Assembly (NCBI RefSeq): GCF_007785775.2
Contig: NZ_VNIK02000003.1
Location: 62,001 to 126,000, forward strand
Reading direction: 5' to 3'
Origin: Flagellimonas hadalis
GTDB taxonomy: Bacteria; Bacteroidota; Bacteroidia; Flavobacteriales; Flavobacteriaceae
DNA length: 64,000 nucleotides
Numbering within the stretch: the first letter of the stretch is position 1; every line of letters begins with the position of its first letter. This document shows, one piece after another, positions 13,629 to 22,917 of the stretch. Both the position numbers and the translations under genes were made by a program. A model generated the notes under the pieces. That model worked only from the letters and a program-made list of their open reading frames with translations. It was not told the origin of the DNA and searched no databases.

Positions 13629-16600
13629 TTAAATTTTCTCAGCTATTCTCAATATATCGCCAAAAACACCTCTGGCCGTGACCGCGGCACCTGCTCCGGC
13701 TCCTTGGATCACCAATGGGTTTTCGCCATAGGACTCCGTGTAAATCTCGATGATGGAATCGGAACCCTTCACCTGCCCCAACGCACTTTGCTTGGGCACG
13801 GAAACCAATTTCACCTCCAAAATTCCCTTGTCCTGTTGAAGGTCGCCATGCAAATCCCCCACATATCTGAGAACATGGCCTGCTTCTTGCTTGTTTTTTA
13901 TTTCCTCGAACACCTTGTCCATCTCCCCGATCCGATCAACGAACCCATCAAAATCCAAGGTCTGCAATTCCTTTGGAATCAGGTTCTGCACTTCAATATC
14001 GGAAAATTCATTTTGAAGGTCCAACTCCCTTGCCAAGATCAAGAGCTTTCTACCCACATCGTTCCCGGAAAGGTCTTCCCTCGGATCAGGTTCTGTGTAC
14101 CCACTTTTCATAGCCTCCTTCACGATGGCCGAAAACGAGGCCTCCTTTTCCGAAAAAGTGTTGAAAATATAGCTCAACGACCCAGAGAACACCCCTTTGA
14201 TCCGGGTAATGTTCTCCCCCGAAAGGTGCAATAGCCTAATGGTGTCTATCAATGGGAGACCTGCCCCCACATTGGTCTCATACAGGTATTGCTTCTGGTT
14301 TTGGTCCAAGGATTTCCGGATGGACTTGTATTTCTCAAAACTCAGCGTATTGGCAATCTTGTTGGAAGAGACCAGGTCAAACCCTTTTCTGATGAACGGT
14401 TCGTAGTGCTCCACAAAAACACTGCTGGCCGTATTGTCCACCGCAATGAGGTTTTCCAAATGGTGTTGCTTGGCAAAGGCAGCAATATCCTCCACTTGGT
14501 AGGGCCTTCCTTCCTTCTCCAATCGCTTTTTCCAATCGGAACCAATTCCTGAAGCATCCAACAACACTTTTTTGGAATTGGCGACCGCAAACACACGAAG
14601 GCCAATTCCTTTCCTTGATTCTATGTTCTTTTCAGAGTCCAAGATCTGATCGATCAAGGTACCCCCGACATTACCATGTCCAAAAATGGCCAGGTTGATT
14701 CGCTTTGCGATGCCAAAAATCTGTCCGTGCACCACATTGACCGCCTTATGAAGGTCCGACTTTTTCACGACCAAGCTCACGTTCTTTCCCGTCACCGTGT
14801 TATTGAACAACAGGGGAATCACTTGGTTTTTGGCCAAGGCATTGAAAGGCCTGTGGAAACTGCTCAGGTCCATCCCCACAATGGAAATGACAGAAACATC
14901 TTTGACCACGGAAATTTGGTTGATGTCCTGTGATGAATAATCGGTTTCAAATTCCTGGTCCAGTACTTTTTTTGCCTTTTCCGCTTTGGATGCATCCACC
15001 ACAAGGCCAATCCCCCTTTCGGACGATCCTTGCGAAATGATGCCCACACTGATGCCATTTTGGCCCAAGGCGCGGAAAATACGCATATCCACACCCACTT
15101 TGCCCAACAACCCCCTACCCTCTAGGTTGATGAGGGCCATGTGGTCCAGCACGGACAGGGATTTGATGCCTCCGTTCCCCGTCTTCGGTCCAATGAGCGT
15201 CCCTTCATTTTCATCATTGAAGGTATTGCAGATTCGAAGTGGGATGTTTTTTTCGATAAGAGGTATGATGGTCTTCGCATGCAGGATATTGGCCCCAAAA
15301 TTGGCCAGCTCGTTGGCTTCCTCATAGGAAATCACATCGATCAAGCGGGCATCCTTTACCAAATCGGGATTGGCCGTAAAGATACCATCCACATGGGTGT
15401 AGTTGACCAGTTCCCCGGCATCCAGAAAGTTGGCCAGCAATGCCGCGGAATAATTGCTGCCGTTTCTACCCAAAGTCGTCGTGGATCCATCCCCGTTAGA
15501 CCCAATAAATCCTGTGACCACGGCTATGGTATCGGTATCCAATTTGTGGAAATACCGTATCACATTTTCCTTGGAGGTCCGTTGGTCCACCTCTGCATTG
15601 CTAAAGGTGTCGTCGGTCTTGATCAATTTTCGGGAGTCCAACAGTTGTGCATTCAGCCCTTGGGCATTCAGCAAAGTGGTCACTACCTTGGCAGAGATCA
15701 GCTCGCCGTAGGACAACACCTCATCCTTGGTCTTGAGGCTATAATCCCCAGTCAGGGAAACCCCATTGAGTATTTTTTGGATGGTCTTTAGCTCTTCTTC
15801 GATATCGACCCCTGCAAAATCATTTTTTTGATAGGCCGCAAAATGGTCGAGGTCCTGTTGAAAATCCTTCCCTTTTGCCGCTTTGTCCAACAAGTCTTCC
15901 AACTCATCGGTGGCCTTACCACGGGCTGACACCACCACGGCAAAATGCTCTTTGTTCTCCGCCCTTTTGGCAATCACCTTCAGCACTCTTTCGATACCCT
16001 CGCCGTTGGCCAAGGACTTCCCACCGAACTTCAACACCTTGATGCGTTCTGTCTTTCCATTTTTCTGAAAAACGGTCTCCAACAGCTTTTCCAATTGTTC
16101 AAATTCCATCAAAAAGGCATCATGGCCGTGGAGCGACTGTACTTCACCATAGGTGACATTGGTGTTGGCCTGGGCCAATCGTTTAAAAGTCTCCCTATTT
16201 TCCTCTGCCGTAAAGAACAGATCGGAATTGACCCCAATGATGTGGATCTTCATGTCGCTTTCCTGCAATGCCTTGAAGGCATCATCCCCGCTACGGGTGA
16301 TGTCGATGGTCTTCAGCAATTGGTTCATCAACTTGTAGGCGGACAACTGGAAACGTTCCTGCAACTTTTTCCCGTGGTGCATCAACCAGCTCTCCACATT
16401 GAAAACCTGAAGCTCTTCGTTCGTGCTCCGTTTGAACCGCTCCTTGAAGGATTCGGGCGTGCGGTAGCAGAGCATGGCATGCATACGGGCATCGTGCACC
16501 GGTTGTTTGGAATTCACGAGGAACTGCTCTTGAATCTGGCAATTGGCTATCAACCAATCCGTTGATTTCCAGTCAGATGCCACAGGAACCAAATGTTCTG

Positions 16601-17015
16601 TAATGTTGGGGTTGAATGCGGCCATTTCCCAGGCGATACCACCGCCCAAAGAACCTCCTATGATGGCGTACAGTTTTTCGATCTTCAATTGTTCCAGTCC
16701 CAAAAGAAACAGTCGGGCAATATCGCCCGCCACAAAATCCTTGTAGTTCTCGATGACAAAACCATCATACCCATTGCCCGGAATGTTGAAGGCCAAAATG
16801 GTATATTTTTCGGTATTGATGCATTTCCCTTCCCCGATCAGATCGGACCACCAGCCATTCTCCCCGGCAACATCGGAATTTCCCGTGAGGGCATGGTTCA
16901 CCATCACCACCGGGGCCGAGTGCAGGGGCTGCCCGAACAATTGATAGGACAATTGTAGGTCCTGTACTTTGCCACTCTGGGTAGAAAATTGATCGATTTT
17001 CAAATACTGTAACAT
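13629..17015 (-). CDS. Homoserine O-acyltransferase-aspartokinase-homoserine dehydrogenase fusion
   Basis: A 1128-residue three-module protein. Residues 1-320 are an alpha/beta hydrolase of the MetX type: nucleophile GGSLGGG (Ser122), Asp265 (GVNSDLFF) and His298 (HGHDAF) form the expected triad. Residues about 325-600 are aspartate kinase (VLKFGGKSL, then GRNGSNYSAA), followed by ACT-like regulatory repeats (about 620-765). Residues 775-1128 are NAD(P)-dependent homoserine dehydrogenase (FGHGNVGG, SGNDVGRKLLILARE). The last two modules correspond to ThrA; the first adds the next methionine-branch step. A continuous frame with no internal stop supports a genuine fusion. It lies between metY and metZ with 40-bp gaps and probably shares their SAM-I control. 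Confidence 0.92.
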   Translation of the reverse strand: MLQYLKIDQFSTQSGKVQDLQLSYQLFGQPLHSAPVVMVNHALTGNSDVAGENGWWSDLIGEGKCINTEKYTILAFNIPGNGYDGFVIENYKDFVAGDIARLFLLGLEQLKIEKLYAIIGGSLGGGIAWEMAAFNPNITEHLVPVASDWKSTDWLIANCQIQEQFLVNSKQPVHDARMHAMLCYRTPESFKERFKRSTNEELQVFNVESWLMHHGKKLQERFQLSAYKLMNQLLKTIDITRSGDDAFKALQESDMKIHIIGVNSDLFFTAEENRETFKRLAQANTNVTYGEVQSLHGHDAFLMEFEQLEKLLETVFQKNGKTERIKVLKFGGKSLANGEGIERVLKVIAKRAENKEHFAVVVSARGKATDELEDLLDKAAKGKDFQQDLDHFAAYQKNDFAGVDIEEELKTIQKILNGVSLTGDYSLKTKDEVLSYGELISAKVVTTLLNAQGLNAQLLDSRKLIKTDDTFSNAEVDQRTSKENVIRYFHKLDTDTIAVVTGFIGSNGDGSTTTLGRNGSNYSAALLANFLDAGELVNYTHVDGIFTANPDLVKDARLIDVISYEEANELANFGANILHAKTIIPLIEKNIPLRICNTFNDENEGTLIGPKTGNGGIKSLSVLDHMALINLEGRGLLGKVGVDMRIFRALGQNGISVGIISQGSSERGIGLVVDASKAEKAKKVLDQEFETDYSSQDINQISVVKDVSVISIVGMDLSSFHRPFNALAKNQVIPLLFNNTVTGKNVSLVVKKSDLHKAVNVVHGQIFGIAKRINLAIFGHGNVGGTLIDQILDSEKNIESRKGIGLRVFAVANSKKVLLDASGIGSDWKKRLEKEGRPYQVEDIAAFAKQHHLENLIAVDNTASSVFVEHYEPFIRKGFDLVSSNKIANTLSFEKYKSIRKSLDQNQKQYLYETNVGAGLPLIDTIRLLHLSGENITRIKGVFSGSLSYIFNTFSEKEASFSAIVKEAMKSGYTEPDPREDLSGNDVGRKLLILARELDLQNEFSDIEVQNLIPKELQTLDFDGFVDRIGEMDKVFEEIKNKQEAGHVLRYVGDLHGDLQQDKGILEVKLVSVPKQSALGQVKGSDSIIEIYTESYGENPLVIQGAGAGAAVTARGVFGDILRIAEKI

Positions 17016-17055: not shown

Positions 17056-18336
17056 TTATTTTCCTATCCCAACAAATGCGTTTTCCAAATCGGCCTTCAG
17101 GTCGGATAGATCTTCCAAACCAACAGACAGTCGGATCAAGTCCTTGGTCACACCTGTTGATTCCTGTTGCGCATCGTCCAATTGTTGGTGCGTGGTACTT
17201 GCCGGATGTATGATGAGCGATTTGGTGTCCCCAATATTGGCCAAAAGAGAGAAAATCTTAGTTTCATCCGCTATTTTCTTGGCCGATTCAAATCCGCCCT
17301 TCACCCCAAAGGTAACAATACCACTTTGGCCATTTGGCAGGTACTCATCTGCCAGGGCCTTGTATTTGCTGGATTCCAGTCCAGGATAGTTCACCCAAGT
17401 GACCTCGTCCCTACTTTCCAACCATTTGGCCAGGGCCAAAGCATTTTCACTGTGCTTTTTCATCCGTATCTCCAAAGTTTCCAATCCTTGGATGATCTGG
17501 AATGCATTATAGGGACTCAAACAGGCCCCATGGTCACGTAATCCCTCGATCCGCACTTTGGCAATGAACGCCGCAGGGCCCAAGGCTTCGTGATAGACCA
17601 ATCCATGGTAACCTTGCGAAGGTTCTGTAAATTCAGGGAATTTTCCATTGGCCCAGTCAAATGTCCCGGCATCAATGATCACCCCTCCCATGGTGGTCCC
17701 GTTCCCGTTGATGTACTTTGTCAAGGAATGCACTACAATATTGGCGCCGTGCGCAATGGGGTTCAACAGTGCCGGTGAGGCCACTGTATTGTCCACGATG
17801 AGCGGTACCTTGGCTGCTTTGGCTTCCTTGGAAATGGCTTTCAGGTCCAGTACGTCCAACTTGGGATTTCCCAAGGATTCCACAAAGAAGGCCTTGGTAT
17901 TGCCTTGGACCGCTTTTCCAAAATTGGCAGGATCCGAAGGATCCACAAAGGTGGTAGTAATGCCCAGACGCGGCAAGGTGACATTGAAGAGGTTATAGGT
18001 TCCCCCATACAGGCTATTGGATGATACGATATGGTCCCCGGCCTTCAACAAGACCAACAAAGCGGTGTTAATGGCGGCCGTTCCCGAGGAGGTCACTACA
18101 GAGGCAATCCCTCCTTCCAATGTGGCCAACCGCTGTTCCAAGATATCGTTGGTCGGGTTGTTGAGCCTGGTATAGATGTAACCCGGCTCACTCAAGGAGA
18201 AAAGATTGGCGGCGTGGTCCGAATCCCTGAACACATAGGACGTGGTTTGGTAGATCGGCACAGCCTGCGTTCCTCCATTCGCGGCCACATCATGGCCAGC
18301 ATGCAATGCATTTGTTGAAAATTTTTGATCACTCAT
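17056..18336 (-). CDS. metY: O-acetylhomoserine sulfhydrylase
   Basis: A 426-residue PLP enzyme converting O-acetylhomoserine and sulfide to homocysteine. Seen: the N-terminal FSTNALHAGHD typical of MetY, TSSGTAAI, the PLP lysine in VHSLTKYINGNGTTMGG, the large insert between residues 225 and 255 (FPEFTEPSQGYHGL) that distinguishes MetY from MetZ/MetB, and SLIIHPASTTH near the end. It is the first gene of the metY-metX/thrA-metZ run and sits directly behind a SAM-I riboswitch. Confidence 0.95.
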   Translation of the reverse strand: MSDQKFSTNALHAGHDVAANGGTQAVPIYQTTSYVFRDSDHAANLFSLSEPGYIYTRLNNPTNDILEQRLATLEGGIASVVTSSGTAAINTALLVLLKAGDHIVSSNSLYGGTYNLFNVTLPRLGITTTFVDPSDPANFGKAVQGNTKAFFVESLGNPKLDVLDLKAISKEAKAAKVPLIVDNTVASPALLNPIAHGANIVVHSLTKYINGNGTTMGGVIIDAGTFDWANGKFPEFTEPSQGYHGLVYHEALGPAAFIAKVRIEGLRDHGACLSPYNAFQIIQGLETLEIRMKKHSENALALAKWLESRDEVTWVNYPGLESSKYKALADEYLPNGQSGIVTFGVKGGFESAKKIADETKIFSLLANIGDTKSLIIHPASTTHQQLDDAQQESTGVTKDLIRLSVGLEDLSDLKADLENAFVGIGK

Positions 18337-20704: not shown

Positions 20705-21958
20705 TTATAGGCCAAAAGCTGCTTTCACCTTGTCCACCATGTCCAGTTTTTCCCAAGTGAAGAGTTCCACTTCCTTTTCGATCCTTCCGTTGTAGGGAGA
20801 CTCGAACACCTTGGTCAAGGTTTGGGGTTCTTTGCCCAAATGTCCGTACGCAGCGGTTTCCAGATAGATGGGATTGCGGAGTTTTAGGCGTTCCTCAATG
20901 GCAAAAGGCCTCATATCGAATAGCTCCGCGGCCTTCTTGGCAATCTCGCCATCACTTAGCTTTACGTTGGATGAACCATAGGTTTCCACAAAAATAGAGG
21001 TCGGTTCCACCACCCCGATAGCATAACTGACCTGTACCAAAATTTCATCGGCCACCCCGGCGGCGACCAAATTCTTTGCCATGTGGCGTGCGGCATAAGC
21101 GGCGCTTCGGTCCACTTTGCTCGGGTCTTTGCCACTAAAGGCGCCTCCCCCGTGGGCTCCCTTGCCGCCGTAGGTATCCACAATGATCTTCCTACCGGTC
21201 AATCCGGTATCGCCATGTGGTCCACCGATCACAAATTTTCCAGTTGGGTTGATGTGGTATTTGATCTTGTCATTGAAAAGTTTCTGGATATCCTCCGGCA
21301 ACAACTTTTTCACTTCAGGGATAAGAATATTGATGATATCTTCCTTGATCTGGGCCAACATCATCTCATCCGAAGCAAACTCATCGTGCTGGGTAGAGAC
21401 CACTATGGTATCGATGCGCTGTGGCACGTTGTCATCGGAATATTCAATGGTCACTTGGGACTTGGCGTCGGGACGCAGATAACTGATCCGTTGACCCTCC
21501 CTTCGCAAATCGGCAAGCACCTGCAAGATCTTATGTGAAATATCCAACGCCAAAGGCATGTAATTCGCCGTCTCCTTGGTGGCATAGCCGAACATCATCC
21601 CTTGGTCTCCCGCACCTTGCTCCTCTTTGCTGCCACGATCCACCCCTTGGTTGATGTCCTGTGACTGTTCGTGGATCAGAGAGATCACCCCACAGGAATC
21701 GCCACTGAACTTGTATTCGCCCTTGGTATAGCCAATATTGTTGATGACCTCCCTGGCAATGCTCTGCAGGTCCACATAGGTATGGCTCTTCACCTCGCCG
21801 GCCAAGACCACCTGACCCGTGGTCACCAAGGTCTCGCAGGCCACTTTGCTCTCGGGGTCAAAGGCCAAAAAATTATCCAATAGGGCATCACTGATCTGGT
21901 CCGCGATCTTATCCGGATGTCCTTCACTAACAGATTCTGATGTAAACAAATATGGCAT
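20705..21958 (-). CDS. metK: S-adenosylmethionine synthetase
   Basis: A 417-residue enzyme that makes SAM from methionine and ATP. Seen: [20 protein letters not shown] at the N terminus, [26 protein letters not shown] and [16 protein letters not shown], all invariant MetK segments. The start at 21958 is fixed by the conserved [13 protein letters not shown]. It is preceded by a SAM-II-like aptamer and a 30-codon reading frame ending 9 nt upstream, so its synthesis is very likely fed back by its own product. Confidence 0.98.
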
Positions 21959-21967
21959 TGTTCTTAT

Positions 21968-22060
21968 TTAATGGAAGTATTCTGACAGATGCCCAGCAAA
22001 GAAGTTCGTAACCCTTGAAGAGTGGTGTCGGGCATTGCCCAACACGAACTGCTTTAGCAT
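21968..22060 (-). CDS. Putative 30-residue leader peptide upstream of metK
   Basis: An ATG-initiated frame of 30 codons that begins within the 3' strand of the SAM-II pseudoknot (AAAAATGCTAAAG) and stops with TAA 9 nt before the metK ATG. The product starts MLKQFVLGNARHHSSR and ends GHLSEYFH. It has no recognisable domain, signal peptide or run of methionine codons. The same RNA folds extensively, so the frame may be a true leader peptide, an accidental frame in a structured RNA, or both. If translated, its start would be exposed only when the pseudoknot is open, and it could couple to metK. Confidence 0.45.
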   Translation of the reverse strand: MLKQFVLGNARHHSSRVTNFFAGHLSEYFH

Positions 22061-22119
22061 TTTTCTTGTGCCAAACCATTTTGGCCACGGAGGTTGCAAT
22101 CAGTCAAATCTTTCCTCGT
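22048..22119 (-). promoter_or_regulatory. SAM-II-type riboswitch upstream of metK
   Basis: On the minus strand the element reads ACGAGG, GATTTGACTGATTGCA, then CCTCCGT: P1 is ACGAGG with CCTC(C)GT. After an L3 region that ends in an A-run comes GCTAAAGCAGT. ACTG pairs with CAGT and TTGC with GC(T)AA to give the H-type pseudoknot of SAM-II. GATTT, ATTGCA and GCTAAA are the conserved SAM-II sequence blocks. The class is known mainly from Alphaproteobacteria and some Bacteroidota. L3 is longer here than in the type examples. Confidence 0.8.
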
Positions 22120-22128
22120 TCTGATGGG

Positions 22129-22159
22129 CAAAAGTACGTATTTGAATGATATTTCAAAA
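22129..22159 (-). promoter_or_regulatory. Bacteroidota promoter for the metK leader
   Basis: Minus strand TTTTG, 18 nt, then TACTTTTG, matching -33 TTG and -7 TAnnTTTG. Transcription would start a few bases before the SAM-II aptamer, leaving almost no extra 5' sequence. Confidence 0.6.
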
Positions 22160-22290
22160 CTTTGTTCCCTGAGGTTTGCCCGCTTTTCCATTTCGTCCAG
22201 TTTTTTTTCTTGAAGTGGATATACTTTGTATATTGCGCCGATTAGATTTCCCTAGTCCTCGAACACCAACATCATAAACACCAACATCTT

Positions 22291-22917
22291 ATGCACATTG
22301 CTGTAGCAGGAAACATTGGCGCCGGAAAGACCACCCTGACCAACTTGCTTGCAAAACACTACAAGTGGGATGCCCATTTTGAGGATGTGGTGGACAATCC
22401 CTATCTGGATGATTTCTATACCCAGATGGAACGTTGGAGCTTCAACTTACAGATCTACTTCCTGAACAGCCGCTACCGACAGATCTTGAAGATCAGGGAA
22501 AGCGGGAAAGATGTGATCCAGGACCGGACCATTTATGAGGATGCCCATATTTTTGCACCCAACCTCCACGCCATGGGCCTGATGACCAACCGTGATTTTG
22601 AGAATTACAGGAGTCTTTTTGAGCTGATGGAAAGTTTGGTGGAGCCGCCGGACCTATTGATCTATCTCCGCAGCTCCATCCCCAATTTGGTGAACCAGAT
22701 CCATAAACGGGGGCGGGACTATGAAAATTCCATTTCCATTGATTACCTCAGCCGGCTGAACGAACGCTACGAGGCCTGGGCCAATACCTATGCCAAAGGT
22801 AAATTGCTCATTTTTGATGTGGACGACCTGGATTTTGTATCCGATCCCGAAGACTTGGGCAAAGTCATCAACAGAATTGATGCGGAGATCCATGGGTTGT
22901 TCGACTCCAACAGCTAA
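22291..22917 (+). CDS. Deoxynucleoside kinase
   Basis: A 208-residue salvage kinase of the dNK family, phosphorylating deoxynucleosides to monophosphates. Seen: P-loop GNIGAGKT near residue 8, FEDVVDNPYLDDFY, the DRTIYED motif with catalytic Asp-Arg, and an Arg-rich lid (IHKRGRDYE). It is transcribed divergently from the metK leader. Whether it prefers deoxyadenosine, deoxyguanosine or others cannot be read from sequence. Confidence 0.93.
   Translation: MHIAVAGNIGAGKTTLTNLLAKHYKWDAHFEDVVDNPYLDDFYTQMERWSFNLQIYFLNSRYRQILKIRESGKDVIQDRTIYEDAHIFAPNLHAMGLMTNRDFENYRSLFELMESLVEPPDLLIYLRSSIPNLVNQIHKRGRDYENSISIDYLSRLNERYEAWANTYAKGKLLIFDVDDLDFVSDPEDLGKVINRIDAEIHGLFDSNS

Follow-up and report, generated by a model that had tools for sequence, protein, structure and literature searches.

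A predicted long-loop SAM-II riboswitch ahead of metK in Flagellimonas hadalis, with a probably incidental ATG in its aptamer

Riboswitch platforms that compete with a strand of the aptamer are a general mechanism. The locus described here lies in a 64,000-nt stretch of the Flagellimonas hadalis genome (contig NZ_VNIK02000003.1), which we call the window. It shares with such platforms a downstream strand that would compete for an aptamer strand, but it differs in that a competitor seems to exist for each of the two aptamer strands, and this in a phylum where Shine-Dalgarno starts are rare.

Excerpts of PMC2864571 place the "SAM-II long loops" class (RF01726) in Bacteroidetes and marine sequences. 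The window has in common with this class the full-length aptamer, the phylum and a SAM-related gene downstream; the aptamer shows no difference, whereas the downstream platform considered below is not part of the Rfam model. We found no description of a Bacteroidota platform in searches of the open-access literature, the supplements of PMC2864571 apart, and its newness is uncertain. Excerpts of PMC12121620 contain nothing on SAM-II.

According to partial texts of PMC9373788 and PMC1273637, the alphaproteobacterial SAM-II riboswitches (Sinorhizobium meliloti metA and metZ) share with the window P1, the P2 pseudoknot (predicted in the window) and the gene set, but their target is a Shine-Dalgarno sequence or an intrinsic terminator, neither of which was seen in the window. 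A search with the alphaproteobacterial model (RF00521) gave no match in the window's genome, and the control genomes were likewise without a match. In the window as in S. meliloti metA, an AUG lies close to the aptamer while the gene itself starts elsewhere. In the passages of PMC9373788 on metA, no reporter signal came from the AUG adjoining the aptamer as long as it stood in the riboswitch context, translation begins 74 nt downstream, and the same AUG drives a reporter once the aptamer is removed.

The SAM-II aptamer ahead of metK

The RF01726 model matched positions 22123-22044 of the minus strand with 57.7 bits (cmscan; cut-off 44, E 1.9e-8 for the window), and the alignment covers model positions 1-60 of 60. 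This match is well above chance level and is the single RF01726 match of the genome. The gene downstream is metK (20705-21958, minus strand, ATG at 21958), which encodes an S-adenosylmethionine synthetase of 417 aa with three S-AdoMet synthetase Pfam domains (PF00438, PF02772, and PF02773). Divergent from metK, a deoxynucleoside kinase gene (PF01712) occupies 22291-22917 on the plus strand.

For comparison, leaders were collected from the best 30 RF01726 matches in genomes other than that of the window (L002-L031), from 60 more listed family matches and from the metK matches of relatives; because of this choice of best and listed matches, strong aptamers are over-represented. From the series L001-L181, we excluded L001 as a duplicate of the window, L119, in which no aptamer was found by pattern, and L005, L027, and L118, which had no metK start. 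The 176 remaining leaders comprise 173 distinct ones, 66 in the window's genus and 107 outside it. One of the 173 (L106) is misplaced in the frame and platform counts.

The first-pass annotation had read both pairings of a SAM-II aptamer ahead of metK from the letters, and the sequence blocks are as it described them. P1 consists of GAGG (22114-22117) and CCTC (22090-22093), both on the minus strand, and was recovered by cmscan. Compensated changes of P1 were found in relatives (AGGG/CCCT in 3 of 173 leaders, GTGG/CCAC in 1 of 173). The predicted pseudoknot helix P2 is formed by the complementary strands ACTGATTGC (22096-22104, minus strand) and GCTAAAGCAGT (22048-22058, minus strand). Between P1 and the 3' strand of P2, the cmscan alignment contains a long-loop insert at 22089-22065 (minus strand) with a small hairpin, GTG.CCAAA / TTTGG.CAC; in many members of the genus, this insert is missing or altered.

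Upstream of the aptamer, we noted a promoter-like pair on the minus strand (22129-22158), in which TTTG (22158-22155) is followed after 18 nt by TACTTTTG (22136-22129). It stops 11 nt upstream of P1. The motif TAnnTTTG, which we take to be the Bacteroidota -7 element, occurs 0-16 nt before P1 in 160 of the 173 leaders (2.9 expected from shuffles), although only 66 of these 160 have a TTG 16-26 nt further upstream. Since TAnnTTTG stands just before P1 in most leaders, the aptamer is probably located at the 5' end of the metK mRNA.

Family-wide, 283 of 299 genomes (the window's own included) had an RF01726 match, which was above the cut-off in 275. Thus, a SAM-II element ahead of metK is ordinary in Flavobacteriaceae, and the sequence evidence supports a predicted SAM-II switch placed to control metK. 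For seven genomes of the family, two SAM-II matches are listed (G004, G052, G081, G239, G281, G290, and G298).

The window also contains two SAM-I riboswitches on the minus strand (cmscan), at 18558-18452 (77.4 bits) and 1207-1096 (57.9 bits). The former precedes a gene for a Cys/Met PLP-dependent enzyme (17056-18336) and the latter, judged by eye, precedes metH. In L027, again by eye, the position that SAM-I holds in the window, before a gene for a Cys/Met PLP-dependent enzyme, is taken by a SAM-II element. SAM-I matches were found in 69 of 69 genus genomes searched, 68 with two and one with three, and the genus shows a division with SAM-I on methionine synthesis and SAM-II on metK. A further gene (13629-17015, minus strand) encodes a protein of 1128 aa with alpha/beta hydrolase, amino acid kinase, ACT, and homoserine dehydrogenase domains, which looks like a homoserine acetyltransferase fused to an aspartokinase-homoserine dehydrogenase.

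Predicted pairing of the aptamer strands with downstream sequence

Three elements of a putative platform follow the aptamer on the minus strand. Predicted folds contain a hairpin, GTGTTGGGC-AAT-GCCCGACAC, at 22025-22045. In the lowest-energy fold, the strand ACGAACTTCTTTGC (21996-22009) pairs with the 3' strand of P2 and with the bases that follow it. Finally, the strand GTCAGAATACTTCC (21973-21986) could pair in part with the aptamer 5' strand GGAAAGATTTGAC, as GGAA/TTCC and TTTGAC/GTCAGA (-9.9 kcal/mol). Inspection by eye revealed full GTCAAATCTTTCC-like strands opposite GGAAAGATTTGAC in many relatives, and ACTTCTTTAG-like downstream strands complementary to CTAAAGCAGT.

The lowest-energy fold of 22123-21950 is this fold-back (-44.9 kcal/mol). 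It is weakly better than the folds of shuffled sequences (z -1.70; 11 of 200 as good), and it is no longer the lowest-energy fold of the window's leader when 40 nt of metK are added. RNAalifold analysis of the 66 genus leaders gave GATTTGAC/GTCAAATC as the main helix. Pairing energies were more favourable with real platforms than with shuffled ones for both the 5' strand (-17.3 versus -11.2) and the 3' strand (-8.6 versus -6.5). Furthermore, pairing with the own platform beat all 300 between-species swaps, which ignore kinship. With real platforms, closing the aptamer cost 12.3 kcal/mol, compared to 9.1 kcal/mol with shuffled platforms, and the cost was higher in 142 of 172 leaders (L120 was excluded from constrained folding), as expected of a competing platform.

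Covariation was scored in the aptamer motif GAGGAxyG in the 101 of 173 leaders that have a GTCAAAT-like site; the window is among the 72 unscored ones, and its own platform strand is a poor match. At base y, an A faced T in 53 of 76 cases, and a G faced either C or T in 21 of 24. In contrast, the ungapped count at base x showed little covariation (A/T 50 of 74, T/A 4 of 15, C/G 2 of 8). The bases just past the aptamer strand fit those opposite them in the platform in all 46 scored genus leaders (20 of 66 unscored; clades pooled), and other lineages seem, by eye, to pair GCAATC with GATTGC instead.

We also compared disjoint sister pairs with differing aptamer strands. Longer strands were run first and gave the weaker result (own platform 40 better, 22 worse, 24 the same; P = 0.03). 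When the strands were narrowed to the RNAalifold helix, the own platform was better in 47 pairs, worse in 23, and the same in 5 (P = 0.006); the corresponding numbers were 15, 3, and 2 in the genus (P = 0.008) and 32, 13, and 5 outside it (P = 0.007). The same comparison was not significant with upstream DNA as control, which leans the same way (43 to 29; P = 0.12), nor with reversed platforms (30 to 42; P = 0.19). For the 3' strand, compared in the run with longer strands, the contrast was not significant either (30 better, 18 worse, 16 the same; P = 0.11). In summary, a fold-back of the leader, in which two downstream strands complement both aptamer strands, looks conserved, with moderate support from covariation.

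Possible read-out at the metK start

We consider it likely that the locus is a long-loop SAM-II riboswitch, placed at the very start of the metK transcript, which lowers metK when SAM is plentiful, and that the ATG within its aptamer is incidental. Without SAM, the platform strands would pair with the pseudoknot 3' strand and the aptamer 5' strand, and the leader would fold back, as the leader comparison supports. On SAM binding, the pseudoknot would close, the platform strands would come free, and ribosomes may then reach the metK start less easily. A copy of the aptamer strand, which some relatives carry adjacent to the start, could pair with the freed platform strand. For the last switching step in the window's genus, translation is our first choice and Rho-dependent termination its main rival.

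Evidence for the translational step came from other lineages. In leaders from small genomes (1.3-2.7 Mb), the aptamer is directly followed by a TTGCTTT-like strand, and an AAAGCAA-like strand that lies at most a few bases from the metK ATG is a possible pairing partner for it; this second strand resembles the aptamer's own TAAAGCA. Pairing of the last 20 nt before metK with the platform surpassed 38 or more of 40 shuffles in 23 of the 107 leaders from outside the genus, against an expectation of 7.8. In the window's genus, the same shuffle test did not support a start-proximal strand (1 of 66 leaders; 4.8 expected). Among named metK loci, 35 of 80 had the aptamer by pattern. The leader of Euzebyella saccharophila (L185) contains ACTTCTTTAG and, immediately before the ATG, CTAAAGAAGT, which could pair with each other; L238, from a Lutibacter genome, carries CTCCTTTT and AAAAGGAG. 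Both cases are readings of the sequence with no shuffle control. Because the start-proximal strand copies an aptamer strand and can pair with the platform, it suggests that SAM shuts off translation in those species. Of the 12 genus leaders whose platform strand is of the TCC type, 7 have an AGGA near the start, compared to 0 of 34 others (clades pooled).

Constrained folding of 172 leaders gave no clear loss of start accessibility upon aptamer closure (0.592 free versus 0.556 closed). Changes above 0.1 were toward lower accessibility in 36 leaders and toward higher accessibility in 14, and the values with shuffled platforms were 0.547 and 0.545. In the window, accessibility went from 0.67 to 0.70, which is the wrong direction.

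With no clear change in accessibility and no supported start-proximal strand in the genus, the translational step stays putative, which leaves room for a transcriptional read-out. In this alternative, SAM would free a pyrimidine-rich, weakly structured stretch before metK, where Rho would end transcription. The freed platform strands are indeed poor in G, and SAM-II switches with transcription terminators are known from S. meliloti metZ (in the available part of PMC9373788) and from others (likewise PMC1273637). However, the start-proximal strands of other lineages point to translation, and no intrinsic-terminator-like site, scored as a G+C-rich hairpin followed by a T run, is present in 21900-22300 (0 found; shuffle mean 0.4). 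We therefore regard transcriptional read-out as unlikely, ahead of the other rivals.

Returning to translational control, a broader scheme is possible, and we put it forward tentatively for the SAM-II switches of Flavobacteriaceae. These may share a two-strand fold-back platform, several lineages may carry a start-proximal copy of the pseudoknot strand, and a three-strand exchange may control translation without a Shine-Dalgarno sequence. In the absence of SAM, the platform strand would pair with the aptamer strand and metK would be on; with SAM bound, the platform strand would pair with the copy beside the start codon and metK would be off.

The frame that starts in the aptamer

A small frame on the minus strand (22060-21968) was judged incidental from its sequence and from the leader comparison. 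As the first-pass annotation had correctly described, it begins with an ATG (22060-22058), has 30 codons, and ends with TAA (21970-21968) 9 nt before the metK ATG. The G of this ATG is the first G of the P2 3' strand (22058). The list of open reading frames starts the same frame from an upstream TTG. A Pfam search of the 30 codons gave no match. The ATG is part of the aptamer consensus AAAAAAAUGCUAAAgCAG of the RF01726 model, and it is present in all 66 genus leaders and in 155 of the 173 overall. In the 107 leaders outside the genus, its place is taken by TTG in 5, by GTG in 4, and by no start codon in 9; the last count stays 9 with the true codon of L106, ACG.

The frame is not kept among relatives. 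In the 66 genus leaders, it stops before or at the metK start in 46, runs out of register into metK in 14, and has no stop in the covered sequence in 6 (2 in register and 4 not, the latter covering 62-63 nt of metK). For leaders that cover just 62-63 nt of metK, lack of a stop refers to that stretch. Where a stop was found (60 genus frames), the lengths range from 4 to 71 codons. The distances from the aptamer ATG to the metK ATG fall into the three registers 26, 18, and 22 times (P = 0.48). In a close relative (L034), the leader is identical to that of the window; in another (L033), three substitutions in the frame each change the amino acid; and a third (L035) has substitutions, one extra base, and no stop ahead of metK.

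In the 66 genus leaders, stops were not rarer in the small frame than in the other two. For frames 0, 1, and 2, respectively, 46, 30, and 42 of the genus leaders had a stop-free middle part, as did 96, 85, and 97 of all 173 leaders. The whole leader stretch was free of stops in 21, 0, and 17 of the 66, with frame 1 closed by a TAA inside GCTAAA. Since the ATG belongs to the aptamer consensus and the other leader frames are about as open, the frame is not beyond chance, and a stop-free run of 30 codons is unremarkable.

The bias of synonymous over nonsynonymous changes that the first-pass annotation had suggested looking for was absent, and so was codon-level conservation of the frame. Substitutions were counted after the aptamer strand in 17 disjoint gapless pairs of similar leaders. 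They were spread over codon positions 1, 2, and 3 as 49, 44, and 48 of 141 (P = 0.86), and 32 of 112 in-frame substitutions were synonymous (25.3% expected; P = 0.45). A coding leader was rejected on these counts and on the loss of the open frame and register.

The 9-nt gap to metK has another origin. Flavobacterium starts are preceded by an A-rich stretch at -14 to -11 (accessible part of PMC6847099). A stop triplet at -12 to -10 of metK is found in 47 of the 66 genus leaders and in every register (16 of 26, 12 of 18, and 19 of 22), while the exact 9-nt gap occurs in 10 of 66. Because this triplet occurs in all registers, the stop 9 nt before metK is best read as belonging to the A-rich stretch ahead of the start, with no sign of coupling.

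The aptamer ATG could still act as a SAM-dependent landing site or decoy start with an irrelevant peptide. Its presence in 155 of the 173 leaders in an A-rich context would fit such a role, as would S. meliloti metA, which, per the metA passages of PMC9373788, needs the Shine-Dalgarno sequence of the riboswitch for the start 74 nt downstream. Yet conservation of the aptamer explains the ATG, and 9 of the 173 leaders have neither ATG, GTG, nor TTG there; moreover, the S. meliloti case rests on a Shine-Dalgarno sequence, a signal hardly used in Bacteroidota (PMC6847099, in part). We consider this role very improbable. Least probable of all is translation of the 30-codon frame, with the SAM-closed pseudoknot blocking its start and metK controlled by translational coupling: the frame exists and stops 9 nt before metK, as do 10 of 66 genus frames, and A occupies -1 to -4 of the aptamer ATG in 98-99% of the 173 leaders, where A at -3 helps initiation in Flavobacterium (same excerpts of PMC6847099), but the varying length, register, and stops, the absence of codon-position or synonymous bias, the triplet that produces the gap in all registers, the 14 of 66 genus frames that enter metK out of register, and L035 all speak against it. 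Of the first-pass proposal for metK control, then, the SAM-II element placed to control metK is supported and the translated, coupled leader is not.

We conclude that the small frame looks like a by-product of the aptamer sequence: its ATG lies inside the aptamer because the aptamer keeps those bases, and initiation there, if any, would be incidental. Activity of the S. meliloti AUG once its aptamer is removed means that a ribosome start at such a place is not impossible; nothing in our analysis shows that the small frame matters.

In 6 of 173 leaders (L044 and L045 in the genus; L114, L115, L162, and L175 outside it), the frame reads on into metK in register with no stop in the covered sequence; one of them, L115, has no ATG at the place of the aptamer ATG. 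Where this happens, gene callers may wrongly extend metK, and the conserved aptamer ATG will yield such frames in many Bacteroidota genomes. Here, the leader comparison removes a tempting, probably false small gene. The analysis also provides a testable suggestion of how translation may come under riboswitch control where, as in this phylum, Shine-Dalgarno sequences play little part.
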